Of a stretch of DNA of 45,017 nt, positions 15,768 through 33,535 are shown one piece after another. How positions within the stretch are numbered: the stretch's first letter is position 1; every line of letters starts with the position of its first letter. The stretch is taken from positions 1 through 45,017 of IMG/VR virus record IMGVR_UViG_3300021180_000020; one strand, given 5' to 3'. This stretch comes from a virus. The notes beneath the pieces are model-generated. The model was not told the DNA's origin and did not search any database. It saw nothing but the letters and a program-made list of their open reading frames with translations. Made by a program: the position numbers and the translations under genes.

Positions 15768-16796
15768 TTACTGATATTGAAGTGTCATAATAGTAATAGC
15801 TTCAGGACGAACGCCCCAACCGCTCGTGATGCGCCACTCGGAGAGAACGTCAATGGCACCACCTGCAAGCGGAGTAGGAATTTCTCTGGGCGCTGCCATA
15901 TCAGCATACATCAACGTGCAAGCCTCGATACCAGGTGCGATCTTGGCAATTTCATTCGTGTTGATTCTTGTTCCCACAGGCTTCTTCACCTCAGGCATAA
16001 CAAGAATAACGGCATCGTTTTGGCCACCACCAACGCCCTTACCAATCAAAGTATCATCGTAACACCAAGCAATGTCGTCATCATTCATAGAGAGAACATT
16101 ATCCAACATTCCTTTAGTTGTCACAGAACCTGCGCCTTCGCGTTGGAACTGAACAATTTGGACGATATTTTGATATTCCATTGCCGCCAGAGTTCTCTGC
16201 GGACCAAGAATAACAAAACTGCGACCAATTCCGAGTTGATTGCATCGTGTCTTGAGAGCAGAGATTTGTGTGAGAAGCCATACGCCAAGCTCGCCATTAT
16301 CATAGGTAACAACAGTATTGTTACCGTTGCTATCAGGCGGCAGAGGAACAGCAGTGGCTCCTTGTGCATTGATAAGACCCTCTCCATTGATAGGATTAAG
16401 TCCATACAGCAGAGCGTTGCGCGCCAATTGGAAATGGCCTTGACGCATACCAAGTCGTTGCGCCTCAACCATATTAAGACCCCACTGCCCCATAGCAGCG
16501 GTATCGTGATGATCATACTCAGCACGGACGCGCAGCAAATAGCTTGCGGTGCTGATCATTGAGAGCGCGACAGAAACGCTGGGCAATTGATTATAAGCAG
16601 CTTGCCCAGCTGCCATTCTCGTGCGAACGTCGAGGCGCTTCATGTAAACATAAAGATCACCATCTGACAATCTGACAAGAGGATCAGCTCCAGCCAAAGT
16701 ATTAAAAGCCCCAGATGCTTGCACATAGGGCAGGATGATACCAGGCTCAATGAACGAAGGATTAACGATTACATATGACGGAGTGGCGCCAGCCAT
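15768..16796 (-). CDS. Major capsid protein (DUF2184 type)
   Basis: A 342-residue protein of the DUF2184 family of HK97-fold major capsid proteins. It lies downstream of a protease/scaffold fusion and a smaller structural gene, the standard order for this group. It has the mixed helix/strand character of the HK97 P and A domains and a conserved C-terminal segment (IDVLSEWRITSGWGVRPEAIT). The SD sequence GAGGTGAAC precedes the ATG. Codon use and composition are less AT-rich than surrounding genes, which is usual for the most highly expressed gene of a phage. A small hairpin (GAGGCG/CGCCTC near 16818-16834) lies upstream. Confidence 0.88.
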   Translation of the reverse strand: MAGATPSYVIVNPSFIEPGIILPYVQASGAFNTLAGADPLVRLSDGDLYVYMKRLDVRTRMAAGQAAYNQLPSVSVALSMISTASYLLRVRAEYDHHDTAAMGQWGLNMVEAQRLGMRQGHFQLARNALLYGLNPINGEGLINAQGATAVPLPPDSNGNNTVVTYDNGELGVWLLTQISALKTRCNQLGIGRSFVILGPQRTLAAMEYQNIVQIVQFQREGAGSVTTKGMLDNVLSMNDDDIAWCYDDTLIGKGVGGGQNDAVILVMPEVKKPVGTRINTNEIAKIAPGIEACTLMYADMAAPREIPTPLAGGAIDVLSEWRITSGWGVRPEAITIMTLQYQ

Positions 16797-16876: not shown

Positions 16877-17503
16877 TTAGACTTCCAGAAGGATACAGCT
16901 ACCTTGACGATTCCAAGTGCAAAAACCAGTTGCAGCGGTATAGATAACTGTCATTGAATTACCGACATTGTATCCAATAATATTGACAGGAGGAAGTGCA
17001 ATATCACCAGCAGCAGCAATCCAACCACTTGCGATTAGATAGAAAAGCGGAAGTGCATTTACGATTACGCCTTGAAGAACAAGCGCTGGATCCATAGCCA
17101 TCGCAATACGCGCACGACTTCCAAACCTATAGAAGTTGACTAGCATTCCAGGATCAGCTTGCTGAACTGGACTCTGCGGGCTATTAATCATAGCATGATT
17201 CTGATTAAACACGCTAATTCCAGTTGCTGCCAAAGCTGCTGTGGCACGACGAATAGAATTTTGCAGTGCAGGATCAGGAAGAGTTGGTACAGGCGGAGTA
17301 CCAATATTCACAGGTGTAGGAATAGATTCAGTAATAGGAACGCCACCAAACATTGGCAGCGTTTCTGTTCCTGCCAATTGACCGCCTGTCAATTGGAACC
17401 TGATTGCAGGATCATCCATTGCCATACCTTGAATCATACCATCAAGGTTTGTGGTAAAGGTTCCCGCAGCATTAGTTGTGATAACAGGATTAATCGAGAT
17501 CAT
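16877..17503 (-). CDS. Capsid decoration/head structural protein (putative)
   Basis: A 208-residue protein between the protease/scaffold fusion and the capsid gene. The middle is Pro-rich (PVNIGTPPVPTLPDPAL) and the C-terminal half is beta-rich with Gly/Ala. In DUF2184-capsid phages this slot holds a head decoration or minor head protein. AAGGAG lies ten bases before the ATG. No catalytic residues are visible; the role is by context. Confidence 0.6.
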   Translation of the reverse strand: MISINPVITTNAAGTFTTNLDGMIQGMAMDDPAIRFQLTGGQLAGTETLPMFGGVPITESIPTPVNIGTPPVPTLPDPALQNSIRRATAALAATGISVFNQNHAMINSPQSPVQQADPGMLVNFYRFGSRARIAMAMDPALVLQGVIVNALPLFYLIASGWIAAAGDIALPPVNIIGYNVGNSMTVIYTAATGFCTWNRQGSCILLEV

Positions 17504-17548: not shown

Positions 17549-19348
17549 TCAGTTGTGGTTTCTGATGCCAGCTAACCTCCGCTTCGGAGAAGAGAATTGA
17601 CTCATCCAAGCAGAGGGTTTACCAACAAACTCCTTGATCTTGCGACCAGTAGCATCCTCACGTACGATCTCGCGAAGGAAATCGTCGCCAATAATTTCTG
17701 GATGCAACCCAGCTTGCTCAGCATCAGCATAAATCGTATTTTCGATATTGCCAAATGCTGTATCGTCTGAGATAACCTTCAGATCGATGGTTTTCCAAGC
17801 TAGAGAATGTTTCTTCAGATCGTTAGCCATACGGCGACGATAGCCCATAAGCGTCTCTCCATCTAGAGGACGAGGCGCACGCTCACCATGCATGGCATAA
17901 ATGCGATCTGCTCTGACTTGCGAATCAGCCATCGCAGCATAATCTGCGTCTGTCATCTGACGCGGAAGTTTAGCTGCAACATCAGCAACGCTTTTGCGAA
18001 CTTCCTCCAAAGCATCAGCTCGCTTCTTCTCTGCTTCCTCAGCATCAGCTTTAGCCTTGGCTTCTGCATCAGCCTTTGCTTTGGCTTCTGCATCGGCCTT
18101 TGCTTTCTCATCAGCCTTTGCTTTTTCTTCATCACTCATAGCTTGGCGAGCCTTATCAGCATCAGCCTTAGCCTTTGCTGCATCTTCTTTGGCTTTTTCC
18201 TTTTCATCCCAAGCATCGCTTACAGTCTGCTTGACTGAATCTTTAACGGAAGCCATCAATGAATCCTTAAACGATGAGAAATAAGAATCCATCTTGGCCT
18301 TATCAGCCTTTTCCTTTTCCTCAGCATCGGCCTTTGCCTTTGCTTCATCAGCCTTACGAGCGGCTTCAAGAGCCGCAGCTTTATCATCATCTGCCATAAC
18401 CAAATCTCCTGCGGTCACTGTTGAAACGCCACTCGGCGGTCTACCTTTGTCCCAAACTCCTTGGAAACAGATTGCTATATGGTCTAGTAATTTTGGTTCA
18501 CCTTCAATTAATAATTTACTACCACCTTTAAGCCTTATTTTTTGATCATCGCCAGTTAAAACTACACAAGGCGAAGTGGATAATTGATTTTTCTCCATTA
18601 ATTCTGCGGCATGTTCATCCCATACTTTGACGATTGCCCAAATTTCATCACCTTTAATATAAGGAATAAATACTGAACCGACATTTCTATCAACATATTC
18701 TTTAGTATTTAATGTTGATGTACCAGGATGTTCAAATATTACAGGGAGCCCATTGCATCTCTGTAAAAATTCATCATTTAAATAAATACCTTTGTCGCGC
18801 CACACATGTTCTTTGATACCACTTCGATACGATAATCCAGTACCAGTTATTCTTATATCAAATAGAGTAATATTAGCATAATGTTGTGGTGAGGTTAACT
18901 CACCTGCCTGCATTAATTTAGCGATACCTAATTCATTAGCAAAATATTTCTGAATCGTTATTGCCACACCAGGATGTAATGGTTCTGGTGGAGCATTTAG
19001 TGGTGCCCAAACATAAGATAAGTGCTCTTTGTCTAGTTTTGGAGGATTAAATTTCTTATCTATTTCTTGAATAAATGTCGTATAGTCTACAACTCTAGTT
19101 GGATTATCACTATCTCCTTCTATTGTGGTTTTTCTACGGGAGAGTTCAAATAATTCTCCAGAAGGGTGAAATCCAATCTCTTCTGAACACTCTCTAATAG
19201 CTGTTTCGACGGAGCTTTCTCCTGATTCTCGTTTACCACCAGGTAAGTCGTAATGTCCAGCATAATCTCCGTATTCTGAACGTTCAAGAAATAATGCCCT
19301 CTTGTCAGAGGTGACAAACATGATCCCGGATGCATAAATAGTCTCCAT
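17549..19348 (-). CDS. Nudix hydrolase - prohead protease - scaffold fusion
   Basis: A 599-residue, three-part protein. Residues 1-140 are a Nudix domain with a complete Nudix box at 38-60 (GKRESGE ... REC-S-EEIGF, matching GX5EX7REUXEEXGU). Residues about 155-310 fit the DUF2213 prohead protease, with His207 (FEHPG) and Ser257/259 (LSTSP) as likely catalytic residues. Residues about 320-460 are an Ala/Lys/Glu coiled coil with an eight-residue repeat (KAKADAEA), typical of scaffolds; a folded C-terminal region follows. The protease would process the scaffold and capsid during head maturation. The role of the Nudix domain is unknown: nucleotide clean-up, NAD or cap-like substrates are possibilities. 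ATG overlaps the previous stop (TAATG). Confidence 0.82.
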   Translation of the reverse strand: METIYASGIMFVTSDKRALFLERSEYGDYAGHYDLPGGKRESGESSVETAIRECSEEIGFHPSGELFELSRRKTTIEGDSDNPTRVVDYTTFIQEIDKKFNPPKLDKEHLSYVWAPLNAPPEPLHPGVAITIQKYFANELGIAKLMQAGELTSPQHYANITLFDIRITGTGLSYRSGIKEHVWRDKGIYLNDEFLQRCNGLPVIFEHPGTSTLNTKEYVDRNVGSVFIPYIKGDEIWAIVKVWDEHAAELMEKNQLSTSPCVVLTGDDQKIRLKGGSKLLIEGEPKLLDHIAICFQGVWDKGRPPSGVSTVTAGDLVMADDDKAAALEAARKADEAKAKADAEEKEKADKAKMDSYFSSFKDSLMASVKDSVKQTVSDAWDEKEKAKEDAAKAKADADKARQAMSDEEKAKADEKAKADAEAKAKADAEAKAKADAEEAEKKRADALEEVRKSVADVAAKLPRQMTDADYAAMADSQVRADRIYAMHGERAPRPLDGETLMGYRRRMANDLKKHSLAWKTIDLKVISDDTAFGNIENTIYADAEQAGLHPEIIGDDFLREIVREDATGRKIKEFVGKPSAWMSQFSSPKRRLAGIRNHN

Positions 19349-19512
19349 TAGGATGGATTCTTTTTACTCAATGCTCCGGTTCGCAATTCGTCTCTATCTT
19401 CATTATCTTTCTTATCGTCTTTGGGCTCTTCAAGTTCATCTTTTTTAGATGACTTAAATGCTGAATCCAACATCGCATCTAGTTTTTCAAGATGTTTGTC
19501 TGGACAAGGCAT
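19348..19512 (-). CDS. Small charged protein, 54 aa
   Basis: A 54-residue gene filling the gap between the portal and the protease/scaffold fusion. It starts at ATG 19512-19510, overlapping the portal stop TAA at 19514-19512, and stops with TAA at 19350-19348, overlapping the next ATG. Both junctions are TAATG, which strongly supports it as a real gene. It begins MPCPDKHLEK and is Lys/Asp/Glu-rich and mostly helical. The function is unknown; a head assembly role fits its place. Confidence 0.75.
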   Translation of the reverse strand: MPCPDKHLEKLDAMLDSAFKSSKKDELEEPKDDKKDNEDRDELRTGALSKKNPS

Positions 19513-21104
19513 TATTGAGCCTCCGTTGTTTGCTGTGTTGACAATCGTTTTGCATTATTTTTTCGATTTTCAACTTCTTGAAGATAATCAATAACAGCAT
19601 CTTCTAAAGAATCAACTCTTGTAGAGCCACTTCTACTCAATTCACCCAACTTATAATGCGGTTTACCAGGTTGCCCTGGAGCGCCACCGGCTCCTGCCTC
19701 CACAGGAGGCTTAAATTTCGCCATTTTCTTGTAATCTAATACCAAAGGAGATGGGAACATTGCTTTCAAATCGTTAAAATTATCGGCTGCCCACTCATAA
19801 ATAGTCTCTTTATTATCATCATCAGCTAATGGAAGCAACAATTCTAGCATAGAAATCACAGATCGTAGCTTGACATTCGCTACTTTTATCTTTTCAGAGT
19901 CAGGTTCAGTCAACAAAGATGGCCAAATCGCAATGAAGTGATTTGACCATTCTATAAATGCTTGATTGTAGCTCTTTTTTCCGTACTCATCCTTGAAATC
20001 GTTCTGAACTGTCTCATAAAATTCTAAATTCCATGCTCTATGTTGTACTATTCTGGTAAAAAATGTGTATAAAGGCTGCATTGATTCACGTAATTTGTCT
20101 ATGTAGCGCGCAATTGCTTTGGCATCTTCCTCACCTTCAGCAAAGGCAACTGCTAATGTCTCACTATTCACAAGTTTTGCTGGCATTCCAGCTGCTGCTG
20201 CTATGTTTTCAAGTATATTTTTCCTGGCAGTCTTGGAAGAATTATCGATATTCTGAAGATTTAATGATTCAATTGACTCATCTATTGAAATGTTCATTAC
20301 AGAACCAGTCATCGCCTCCTTAAGCATACCGCGCTTAATGCCAGCAATCTGTTGCATCACATTATTTATGATGCTACCTGGTGCTTTTAGCTTTGCGACA
20401 ACAACTCCAGCTTTTTTAGTCACTAAATCGTCTGTAATCATCGACTGTAAGAATGATTTAAGTGGATAAAGCGCGCGCTGATAAACAGAACGGCCAACAT
20501 AACCCCAAGCTGAAGTAGTATAATCAAGATAAATTGGATCTTCATTTTGATAAATGCAAGTTCGCGTGAAATGATAGGCTTGTCCTTGAACAGAAATAGT
20601 AATTGGCTTCAAAAATGTCGGAGAATTTGGATTTTGATTTAAAACTAAGCTTCCAGCTGTATTTAGTGGATCAAAAACGTTAAAAGTCATAGGTTTTTGA
20701 GCTAAACTAGCATAATCCAGCGGTTTTGAAGGATCTTCGTTAGGAATCATACACGCTACAGATGAAATTCCATAAATTCTTGCTAATCTTACCACATTTG
20801 CAATAATTCTATCTGCATCTATTCGTTGCCATTCATCTGTAAACGCTTTTCTTACGCGATCTTCGGGTGATCCTGGGATATTTATGTTGCGCCCCTGAGA
20901 TTGTGCCAATTGAACCGGCACATCAACAAGTTTTGCGCCATAAGGATGATAAGAATAGATAAGTTTGCAGAGTTCGTATGATGCACTAGACCCTAATTCA
21001 ATATTATCAGCCATCAAAATCTTCATTAATGGCGTCCCTATAGGGGAGCCACCAAATAATCCACCACCTTGGCCTTCTATTTGAGCTTCGGCCATTACAT
21101 TCAC
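19512..21104 (-). CDS. Portal protein (DUF1073 type)
   Basis: A 530-residue portal protein resembling the DUF1073 (anti-CBASS Acb1-unrelated) portal family: N-terminal region with LCKLIYSYHPYGAKLVDVPVQ, a central VARIYGISSVACMI segment, and the region around ENIAAAAGMPAKLV followed by EGEEDAKAIARYIDKLRE, which makes the stem and wing. The portal is the dodecameric gateway at one capsid vertex through which DNA is packed. It starts at GTG 21104 or, less likely, ATG 21095; the GTG overlaps the TGA of the small gene before. Confidence 0.87.
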   Translation of the reverse strand: MNVMAEAQIEGQGGGLFGGSPIGTPLMKILMADNIELGSSASYELCKLIYSYHPYGAKLVDVPVQLAQSQGRNINIPGSPEDRVRKAFTDEWQRIDADRIIANVVRLARIYGISSVACMIPNEDPSKPLDYASLAQKPMTFNVFDPLNTAGSLVLNQNPNSPTFLKPITISVQGQAYHFTRTCIYQNEDPIYLDYTTSAWGYVGRSVYQRALYPLKSFLQSMITDDLVTKKAGVVVAKLKAPGSIINNVMQQIAGIKRGMLKEAMTGSVMNISIDESIESLNLQNIDNSSKTARKNILENIAAAAGMPAKLVNSETLAVAFAEGEEDAKAIARYIDKLRESMQPLYTFFTRIVQHRAWNLEFYETVQNDFKDEYGKKSYNQAFIEWSNHFIAIWPSLLTEPDSEKIKVANVKLRSVISMLELLLPLADDDNKETIYEWAADNFNDLKAMFPSPLVLDYKKMAKFKPPVEAGAGGAPGQPGKPHYKLGELSRSGSTRVDSLEDAVIDYLQEVENRKNNAKRLSTQQTTEAQ

Positions 21105-22420: not shown

Positions 22421-23926
22421 TTACCACAGATCAGGATCGCCTAGAGCACTGGCAATACCATATGTAAAACAATCTACTAAATCATCTTCTTGGTCTGGAA
22501 CGCCTACATTAAATGTATGAACTTGCTTAATTAAATGATTAGCATGTCTCTGTTTAAAATCAATTGTTTTTCTATATGCTAACTCTGTGTATTTGACTTT
22601 ACCCACAGATACATATCCAGAAGCATTCAAAGCGCGCGGCTGTTTTCCTAATTGAACCAACTTAGCATCTATTCCAGTTGCCAACTTATTTTGCCGATTC
22701 AATTGCTGCAACAGAACAATACCAGAACCTTTTTCTTCAATAAAAGGTCCAATCGAGCCTCGACGCGCGCCACATTGTCTAGAATATTCTTCAAGCTTGC
22801 TATAGACAACATCCATCCAATTAACTAATAAATCTGCTGGCGTTTGTACAAGATCATAATCTAAAATCTGTAGTGGCGCCTCAGGTTTATATTGATTAAT
22901 CGCCCAAAATATAACACCTGTTGCGTCATGTTTTGCATCTGCTTTAATACCAGTATCTATGGTAGCAAAGACGCAATCACACCAAGTAAATGAATCTACA
23001 GGATGCCCATCTACTAACAAATCTTTCTCAAGGAAGAATGTACCACCAGGAGGTTGTGGATTCTGTTGATACAAGGATTCAAAATCCCTTAGACCCAAAA
23101 TTGTGCGCTTTCGTTCAATTGCAGCAAGATCTTCCCATTGCGGCCAAAGAACTTCTCCAACTTTTCGCTTAAGAGGATCATCGGCAACTGCAATGGCAGG
23201 AAGATTGATAATATGCCATTGATCTCCACCCTTATCCATCTCATGCAATAGCATACCACCTAAATCTTCTAAATGCCATCGCGTTTGAATGAGAATGATT
23301 CTCGCGTCTGGTTTTAATCTGGTGACCAAGTCACTTTTATACCATTCGAAAGTTTTTGTACGTACAGTTTCTGATTCAGCATCTTCGCGCGATTTAACTG
23401 GGTCATCAATAATTGCAAGATCAGCTCTACGTCCGGTGATTGCTCCTCCAACACCGGCCGCGAAGTATTCACCTCCGTTGGTAGTTTCCCAGCGAGAAGC
23501 GGCTCTGTTCGATTCATCAAGAGAGTATCCTAAAATGGGAGCTTTCAATAATATCTTGTTGCGCACCCTACGGCCAAAGCGTTCAGCTAACTCGCCAGTA
23601 TGTGAACAACCAATTATAGAACTACGTGGAAATATTTTAAACCAATATGGAGGAAGTAGTTCGCTGGTGTAAGTAGACTTGGCACTTCCTGGTGGGGCAA
23701 AAATCATCAACCGATCTATTTCACCAGTAATAACTTTCTGCAACGCTTTGATAATATGTCTATGATGATTTGCAGGTTCGAAACCGAAATCGTGAACACA
23801 TTCTTCGCACCAAGCCAAAAGATTAGATTGACAAGAGCGGCGCCACGCCTCAGATTTATATTTCAAAATTTGAGTTTTTCTAATTCTCTCAAATGGTGAT
23901 TCTGGAGGTTCAAAACCCATACTCAT
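22421..23926 (-). CDS. Terminase large subunit
   Basis: A 501-residue packaging motor. The N-terminal ATPase has Walker A APPGSAKST (residues 77-85) and Walker B LAIIDDP (about 170-176). Its C-terminal nuclease (RNase H fold) has an acidic residue at D324 (ATIDTGIKAD) and further acidic residues near the C-terminus (DQEDDLVDCF). It cuts and translocates DNA into the prohead through the portal. The ATG overlaps the TGA of the small HTH gene (ATGA). The small subunit appears to be separately encoded near 33 kb; see that entry. Confidence 0.93.
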   Translation of the reverse strand: MSMGFEPPESPFERIRKTQILKYKSEAWRRSCQSNLLAWCEECVHDFGFEPANHHRHIIKALQKVITGEIDRLMIFAPPGSAKSTYTSELLPPYWFKIFPRSSIIGCSHTGELAERFGRRVRNKILLKAPILGYSLDESNRAASRWETTNGGEYFAAGVGGAITGRRADLAIIDDPVKSREDAESETVRTKTFEWYKSDLVTRLKPDARIILIQTRWHLEDLGGMLLHEMDKGGDQWHIINLPAIAVADDPLKRKVGEVLWPQWEDLAAIERKRTILGLRDFESLYQQNPQPPGGTFFLEKDLLVDGHPVDSFTWCDCVFATIDTGIKADAKHDATGVIFWAINQYKPEAPLQILDYDLVQTPADLLVNWMDVVYSKLEEYSRQCGARRGSIGPFIEEKGSGIVLLQQLNRQNKLATGIDAKLVQLGKQPRALNASGYVSVGKVKYTELAYRKTIDFKQRHANHLIKQVHTFNVGVPDQEDDLVDCFTYGIASALGDPDLW

Positions 23927-32610: not shown

Positions 32611-32898
32611 ATGTCCGAGGACTCAATTGAAACTGCACGCGAGCGCGCCACAAGGATCTGGCGGAATCAGTGGATTCAAAGACAATCACAACTTCACCAA
32701 CAAGAACCGTCCCCATCAATTGAGCAAGAACGCTTATTGAATCAAGGCAGAACTAAATTGATTAGAGCTATTAATAAAGTATTTGATGAGCACAAACATA
32801 CATTGACATTAGAATATTATAAGTTGGCCATTAATAGTAGACGAAGGAAGCTGTTGGAAGAAAAGCTGAAGCGTTTGGAGCACCACCAGAATGACTGA
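32611..32898 (+). CDS. Hypothetical helical protein
   Basis: A 95-residue, Arg/Gln/Glu-rich helical protein beginning MSEDSIETARERATR, chosen over upstream ATGs because the sequence becomes protein-like from there; none has a good ribosome-binding site, so the start is uncertain and could be near-leaderless. It precedes and overlaps the small-terminase-like gene. Confidence 0.5.
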   Translation: MSEDSIETARERATRIWRNQWIQRQSQLHQQEPSPSIEQERLLNQGRTKLIRAINKVFDEHKHTLTLEYYKLAINSRRRKLLEEKLKRLEHHQND

Positions 32899-33535
32899 TC
32901 CCATCCATAATATAGATCCAGAACCCACAGTTATGTGGGAAGAGGATTATGAGCGCCTCAAAAAGCAACAGCGTATTGATGCTGAGATTGAGCGCGTCAA
33001 TAAAGAGAAGCGTGATGCATTGGCACGTGAGTTGTATAAAGAACAACTCAAAGTTAAAGATAAAATCAATTATACTGAAGAATTGGCAACTGAGATATGT
33101 GAGCGCATTAGTGCTGGAGAGTTGCTCATCAATATTTGTCATGATTCACACATGCCCACTGTGCGCCGCTGTTCAGCATGGTTGAAGGCAGAATCTGATT
33201 TCCAAGCACTATACAATATGGCAATTGCTGATAGATTGACTATATTTGAAGAGGAAGTCATCAGTATTGCTGATGATGCAGCTAATGATTTAAAGGAAAT
33301 CATTAAATCTGGGAAGAAAATTAAGGTTCAAGATGCTGATGTCATTGCGCGTGCCAAATTGCGCGTCGAAGTGCGCTTCAGACATTTGAAAGCTGGACGT
33401 CCACAGAAATGGGGTGACAGTACTACTATCATATCTAAATCTGAAGAAGAAAATATTGCAGAGATGCCATTACCTGAGTTGGAAAAGAAAATTGCTGAAC
33501 TTGAGCTTAAAGATAGAGTGGTGAAAGCAGTTTGA
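32891..33535 (+). CDS. Terminase small subunit-like protein
   Basis: A 214-residue protein whose middle matches the small-terminase DNA-binding type: ELATEICERISAGELLINIC, then SHMPTVRRCSAWLKAESDFQALYNMA, and a C-terminal region containing VIARAKLRVEVRFRHLKAGRPQKWGD. Small terminases recognise the packaging site and form a ring that feeds DNA to the large subunit. In this phage it lies about 9 kb from the large subunit and on the opposite strand, unusual but seen in some phages. The N-terminal 60 residues form a charged helix. Confidence 0.75.
   Translation: MTDPIHNIDPEPTVMWEEDYERLKKQQRIDAEIERVNKEKRDALARELYKEQLKVKDKINYTEELATEICERISAGELLINICHDSHMPTVRRCSAWLKAESDFQALYNMAIADRLTIFEEEVISIADDAANDLKEIIKSGKKIKVQDADVIARAKLRVEVRFRHLKAGRPQKWGDSTTIISKSEEENIAEMPLPELEKKIAELELKDRVVKAV

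Follow-up and report, generated by a model that had tools for sequence, protein, structure and literature searches.

A conserved Nudix domain fused to a phage head-maturation protease, in a gene with a probable internal start for its scaffold

A single reading frame in the viral DNA analysed here joins a Nudix domain to a head-maturation protease and a scaffold, and this gene appears to be built for two products. The DNA is that of IMG/VR virus record IMGVR_UViG_3300021180_000020, and its whole stretch of 45,017 nucleotides is referred to below as the window. We tentatively propose that the Nudix domain is an active accessory hydrolase, held rigidly on the protease instead of on a cleavable leash, and most plausibly carried as virion cargo that would be delivered to the next host cell along with the DNA. 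The long form, Nudix-protease-scaffold, would enter the prohead by its scaffold tail, and the short form, the scaffold alone from an internal ATG (18397), would probably be the abundant product. The Nudix part would hydrolyse some nucleotide-diphosphate-linked molecule, and would occupy a slot in which relatives appear to place other host-directed enzymes. Catalysis by the Nudix domain and prohead entry by the scaffold tail are what we infer; its survival of maturation, its ejection and a NAD- or ADP-ribose-linked substrate are conjectural.

The long form is encoded by an intact ORF of 599 amino acids (17549-19348, minus strand) and belongs to PHROG 6216, a family with no assigned function whose match covers residues 4-596 (E 6e-149). 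The head operon, likewise on the minus strand, runs in the order terminase large subunit (22421-23926; PF03237, E 3e-13; PHROG 38), portal protein (19512-21104; PF06381, E 8e-18; PHROG 146), the fusion gene, a small gene of PHROG 6268, function unknown, which separates the protease and capsid genes (16877-17503), and a probable major capsid gene (15768-16796; PHROG 6671, with a weak match to PHROG 264, major head protein, E 2e-4), whose syntenic counterpart in Pantoea phage PdC23 is annotated as major capsid protein. Tail sheath and baseplate genes come next, and the phage is therefore of the myovirus type. An Sf6-like terminase small subunit is encoded at 32891-33535, on the other strand and about 9 kb away from the gene for the large subunit. 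The portal and protease genes of the window are only 163 bases apart (19349-19511), and an extra gene found between them in relatives, annotated as head morphogenesis in PdC23, was not seen in the window.

The sequence-only reading had reported a complete Nudix domain with an intact box at the N-terminus of the polyprotein, and this is borne out. The domain spans residues 4-132 (18953-19339, minus strand); Pfam NUDIX (PF00293) matches residues 8-127 with E 2.4e-13 and 50.7 bits (cut-off 21.1), and Foldseek matches in the PDB are MutT/Nudix enzymes (best E 4.5e-8, with a TMt of about 0.8 to MutT). The box, residues 38-60 (GKRESGESSVETAIRECSEEIGF; 19169-19237, minus strand), reads G38-X5-E44-X7-R52-E53-X2-E56-E57-X-G59 and agrees throughout with the consensus GX5EX7REUXEEXGU, its U positions being C54 and F60 and its catalytic set E44, R52, E53, E56 and E57. 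In an alignment of 73 fused members (A2), R52, E53, E56, E108 and W114 are invariant, and E44 and E57 are each present in 72, though members are only about 40-50% identical to the window protein; loss of these residues from homologues, which would have told against the earlier reading, is thus not what we found. Such near-complete conservation makes the domain very probably an enzyme in most members, and probably an active one in the window. Estimates of dN/dS between close relatives of the window, some with saturated synonymous distances, are about 0.1-0.4 for the Nudix part and 0.05-0.19 for the protease, values that in the former indicate purifying selection. Exceptions are found in one Erwinia prophage, with EE changed to EK in the box, and in two Saccharibacter prophages (L123, L124), where the box is ruined and the fold still recognisable, and where the domain is likely a non-catalytic version.

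Assignment of a substrate class by sequence was rejected, no signature fitting. MutT, NudG and other NCBIfam models score far below their cut-offs, the MutT 8-oxo-dGTPase equivalog TIGR00586 giving 27.4 bits against 97.9. ADP-ribose pyrophosphatases of the Nudix superfamily are marked by a proline about 16 residues past the box, and NADH-hydrolysing members (NudC) by SQPWPFPxS. The conserved proline is absent here, residues 73-78 being variable or gapped, and SQPWPFP is absent from both the window protein and the consensus. NudG and MutT lead the PDB sequence matches, and the sequence of the Nudix part leans toward MutT/NudG-like enzymes over any named ADP-ribose or NAD class.

The protease domain, residues 137-310 (18419-18940, minus strand), is recognised from PHROG 530, DUF2213 and predicted fold. 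The PHROG 530 match is weak; DUF2213 (PF09979) matches 9 of 14 family members (best 1e-8), with no match to the window protein itself at E 0.1, and residues 137-310 have no PDB relative at the sequence level. An AlphaFold model of the domain alone (pLDDT 93.7, pTM 0.88) is closest to the herpesvirus assemblins of EBV and PRV and to T4 gp21 (Foldseek E 2e-3 to 6e-3, probability 0.98-1.0). H207, S257-T258-S259-P260 and D289 are invariant in alignment A2 (73 members), and in the window and relatives alike the gene sits between portal and major-capsid-like genes. Beyond the protease, the window protein consists of a low-complexity, K/A/D/E-rich coiled-coil region and a conserved C-terminal domain.

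Several observations bear on how the Nudix and protease parts are joined. In a model of residues 1-312 (pLDDT 95.2, pTM 0.91), the last Nudix helix, residues 126-136 (PGVAITIQKYF, directly after LH125; 18941-18973, minus strand), leads almost straight into protease helix 139-147 with no obvious linker. The boundary of this helix rests on predicted secondary structure and on loci in which the gene is split, the Nudix domain being encoded by its own gene in L170-L172, L176, L178 and L201. There the protease ORF starts with the last Nudix helix (IHPGVxxSLxRLG), which is likewise kept on the protease in L016, L182 and L184, and the split genes of L170, L176 and L201 nest among fused ones within a well-supported clade. 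The junctions are of two kinds, an ATGA overlap (L170, L201) and TAA-ATG (L176, L178), which argues for ordinary translational coupling; programmed frameshifting and stop read-through were considered for the split genes and rejected. From the pTM and the split genes together, Nudix and protease are predicted to form one rigid unit, in which the Nudix domain would dock on the protease and covalent linkage would not be essential. Release of the Nudix domain by protease cleavage, raised in the sequence-only reading, is unlikely on the same evidence, since the model is rigid and, where the gene is split, the final Nudix helix goes with the protease. Divergence of the two domains is correlated (Mantel r 0.68, 0 of 1000 permutations). 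In L016 (2381-3220), the split Nudix ORF extends further, and the additional region has a zinc-peptidase-like VLAHEAGHAIDH motif.

The position ahead of the protease is open to other domains. An ADP-ribosyltransferase domain (PF03496, E 1e-19) precedes the Nudix domain in L156 (1753-2628) and L064 (3275-3997), so that ADP-ribosyltransferase, Nudix, head protease and scaffold all occur in one chain. A PBECR1 nuclease domain (barnase/EndoU/colicin E5-like) lies upstream of the Nudix domain in L140 (1894-2628), and its sister locus L136 has neither; a rubrerythrin/EncFtn-like ferritin-like domain replaces the Nudix domain in L145 (2707-2997), and DUF6321 takes the slot in L018. Nudix domains related to this one also occur on or beside other head genes, at the C-terminus of the portal of Burkholderia phage Bcep781 (gp17, NC_004333) and, in Bm1, as a gene of its own flanked by those for head morphogenesis and the protease. 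By analogy with T4 Alt, such a distribution fits a host-directed cargo, and the ADP-ribosyltransferase on the same polypeptide in two relatives lends some support to a link with NAD or ADP-ribose. Separately, PHROG 595, "head maturation protease", also bears an ADP-ribosyltransferase domain, at its C-terminus. Two short N-terminal motifs recur across several loci (among them L002, L017, L108 and L136-L142), MPSVSEKQHRAMEAAAHGHSTLGIPxxVGxEFV (PHROG 16759) and MPLEKGSSxEAISKNIATE..AGKxxKQAxAIA (PHROG 2423), and are possibly head-targeting peptides. A broader form of the proposal, which we regard as possible though doubtful, would make the protease N-terminus a general loading dock, from which interchangeable host-directed enzymes, in limited copy number, ride the scaffold tail into the prohead; the Nudix domain (sometimes with an ADP-ribosyltransferase in one chain) would then manage NAD or ADP-ribose chemistry as the next infection begins.

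Because no obvious linker separates the Nudix domain from the protease, the fate of the one should follow that of the other. T4 and HK97-type proteases mostly depart or digest themselves after maturation. The number of gp21 copies in T4, for example, falls from 72 in the prohead to 3 in the mature head (PMC9026906). Rigid attachment to a partner that usually vanishes is a real argument against packaging and ejection, and virion proteomics for phages with the Nudix-protease fusion was not found in the literature, a paper on the Yersinia relatives (PMC9224151) reporting none. The Nudix domain might instead act late, in the producing cell or in the assembling prohead, for example by removing a nucleotide or dinucleotide signal or by sanitising nucleotides, and then be lost or digested with the protease. 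Such a late role, which we think rather unlikely, would suit the rigid coupling, the retention of the docking helix on the protease in split genes and a sequence nearest to the MutT/NudG nucleotide-triphosphate enzymes, as well as the behaviour of the T4 and HK97-type proteases; it leaves unexplained, however, the ADP-ribosyltransferase, nuclease and ferritin-like domains in the same slot and the Nudix domain on the Bcep781 portal.

We consider it unlikely that the Nudix domain serves the protease itself, as a structural or regulatory module whose ligand binding or hydrolysis would time the activation of head maturation. The predicted rigid unit, the co-divergence of the two domains and the Saccharibacter prophages that retain the fold despite a ruined box are all in keeping with a module of this kind, but the catalytic residues are almost never lost, unlike those of Nudix domains that only bind ligands, and the proteases of many relatives have no Nudix domain at all.

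How many copies of the Nudix domain are made depends on where translation of the scaffold begins. Directly after the protease, the window frame contains an in-frame ATG (residue 318, its A at 18397) that opens a nested scaffold frame of 282 amino acids (17549-18397, minus strand), comprising the coiled coil and the conserved C-terminal domain, and a Shine-Dalgarno sequence, AGGAG (18406-18410, minus strand), stands ahead of it. Among 107 sequence clusters, which are related to one another so that p-values overstate their independence, 104 have an ATG in the post-protease stretch and 90 an ATG with a Shine-Dalgarno core. The core precedes the first post-protease ATG in 84 of 104 cases, as against 17 of 258 ATGs elsewhere within the protease (p 4e-45), and a synonymous-codon null predicts 33 +/- 4 such starts where 89 are observed. 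The peptides around this start vary among clusters and the Shine-Dalgarno/ATG motif persists; at least 10 loci encode the scaffold apart from the protease, as a gene that has a Shine-Dalgarno sequence and ATG to itself. Ribosome-binding sites are weaker at the start of the long form (mean -4.5 versus -6.5 kcal/mol; n=49, p 1.6e-4), and in the window a Shine-Dalgarno core is absent before it. These signals suggest that the scaffold is translated mainly from the internal start, and that the Nudix domain sits on the protease form, probably the minor product. With a start of its own the scaffold would not carry the Nudix domain, and hundreds of Nudix copies per prohead are unlikely; the idea, in the sequence-only reading, of a hydrolase on a protein made in such numbers is thus probably wrong. 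For the long form to be the sole product, with a Nudix domain on every scaffold subunit, the cluster counts, the enrichment at the first ATG and the separate scaffold genes would all have to be set aside, and we hold this to be very improbable.

The fusion is widespread. Searches by tblastn found matches in 17 phage records, and profile scans recovered 33 related stretches from bacterial genomes and at least 568 from IMG/VR. The same domain order, for which the sequence-only reading had suggested a search, recurs in Shewanella phage QDWS, Pantoea phage PdC23, Yersinia phage vB_YenM and Klebsiella phages Chronis and RothC, and across many environmental and prophage loci. Of 206 protease ORFs collected, 170 have a Nudix domain on the same polypeptide and 36 lack one, counts that come from similarity-ranked samples and so give no unbiased frequency. 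On the protease tree the two kinds interleave, with at least 15 state changes; many forks are weak, about four changes are forced by well-supported branches, and the root is unknown, so that gain and loss are indistinguishable. A single fusion followed by simple vertical descent was rejected on this count, and the sequence data indicate that the Nudix domain has been repeatedly gained or lost. In the 11 Nudix-bearing records that were searched, the Nudix domain occurs exactly once per record, fused to a head gene or, in Bm1, encoded beside one. No Nudix domain was found anywhere in the Nudix-less phages pPE4 and Rac-SA53, searched whole, or in the 43-kb L017 contig, and a compensating free Nudix enzyme was accordingly rejected for these; the existence of several phages without any Nudix domain implies that its function is dispensable. 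Frequent turnover is also what would be expected of a neutral hitch-hiker captured by recombination, a reading to which we give almost no credence, given dN/dS well below 1 and catalytic residues invariant among such divergent members.

If the proposal of an accessory enzyme carried as cargo holds, this gene is a concrete and widespread example in which the maturation protease is a phage's means of bringing an enzyme into the head, and the Nudix domain, if ejected, would become a candidate for countering defences that use nucleotide signals. The scaffold start inside the gene and the occurrence of split genes illustrate a way for a protease-scaffold gene to acquire cargo and yet not overload the capsid. 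The fusion itself is real, conserved and already on record, the window protein being a further member: Iyer et al. 2022 mention a Nudix-capsid peptidase fusion, the same kind as this one, and propose packaging and injection for fusions of Nudix domains with head proteins (PMC9503650). An internal scaffold start, a split form and a catalytic census are not named in those passages, where the domains are placed in a T4 NudE-like clade, whereas NCBIfam and PDB comparisons here rank MutT/NudG-like enzymes above NudE. The present analysis contributes the scaffold start inside the gene, the split genes and the helix common to them, the count of catalytic residues across members and the other domains found in the cargo slot. 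Existing annotations as PHROG 6216 or "NUDIX hydrolase" (Chronis gp4, PdC23 gp04) denote the same full-length family, of which the window protein is a divergent member at about 40% identity, and those of the two phage proteins overlook the protease and scaffold parts. Bcep781 resembles the window in attaching a related Nudix domain to a head protein, and differs in that this protein is the portal, its head protease (gp14) being a separate gene with no Nudix match. The lambda C/Nu3 gene is a protease-scaffold gene of the same type as herpesvirus UL26/UL26.5, and both differ from the present gene in having no Nudix domain. In the herpesvirus gene, too, protease and scaffold are fused and the scaffold is also made from an internal in-frame start (PMC4498786), for which the evidence here is that of sequence; the window family has an invariant D289-H290 together with H207 and S257-S259, as distinct from a proven Ser-His-His triad. 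T4 Alt, an ADP-ribosyltransferase, enters the prohead core and persists in the mature head until its ejection (PMC9026906). It differs in being a core protein that stands free of the protease; the likeness lies in a host-directed enzyme borne by prohead components, and a domain of that kind is carried beside the Nudix domain in L156 and L064.
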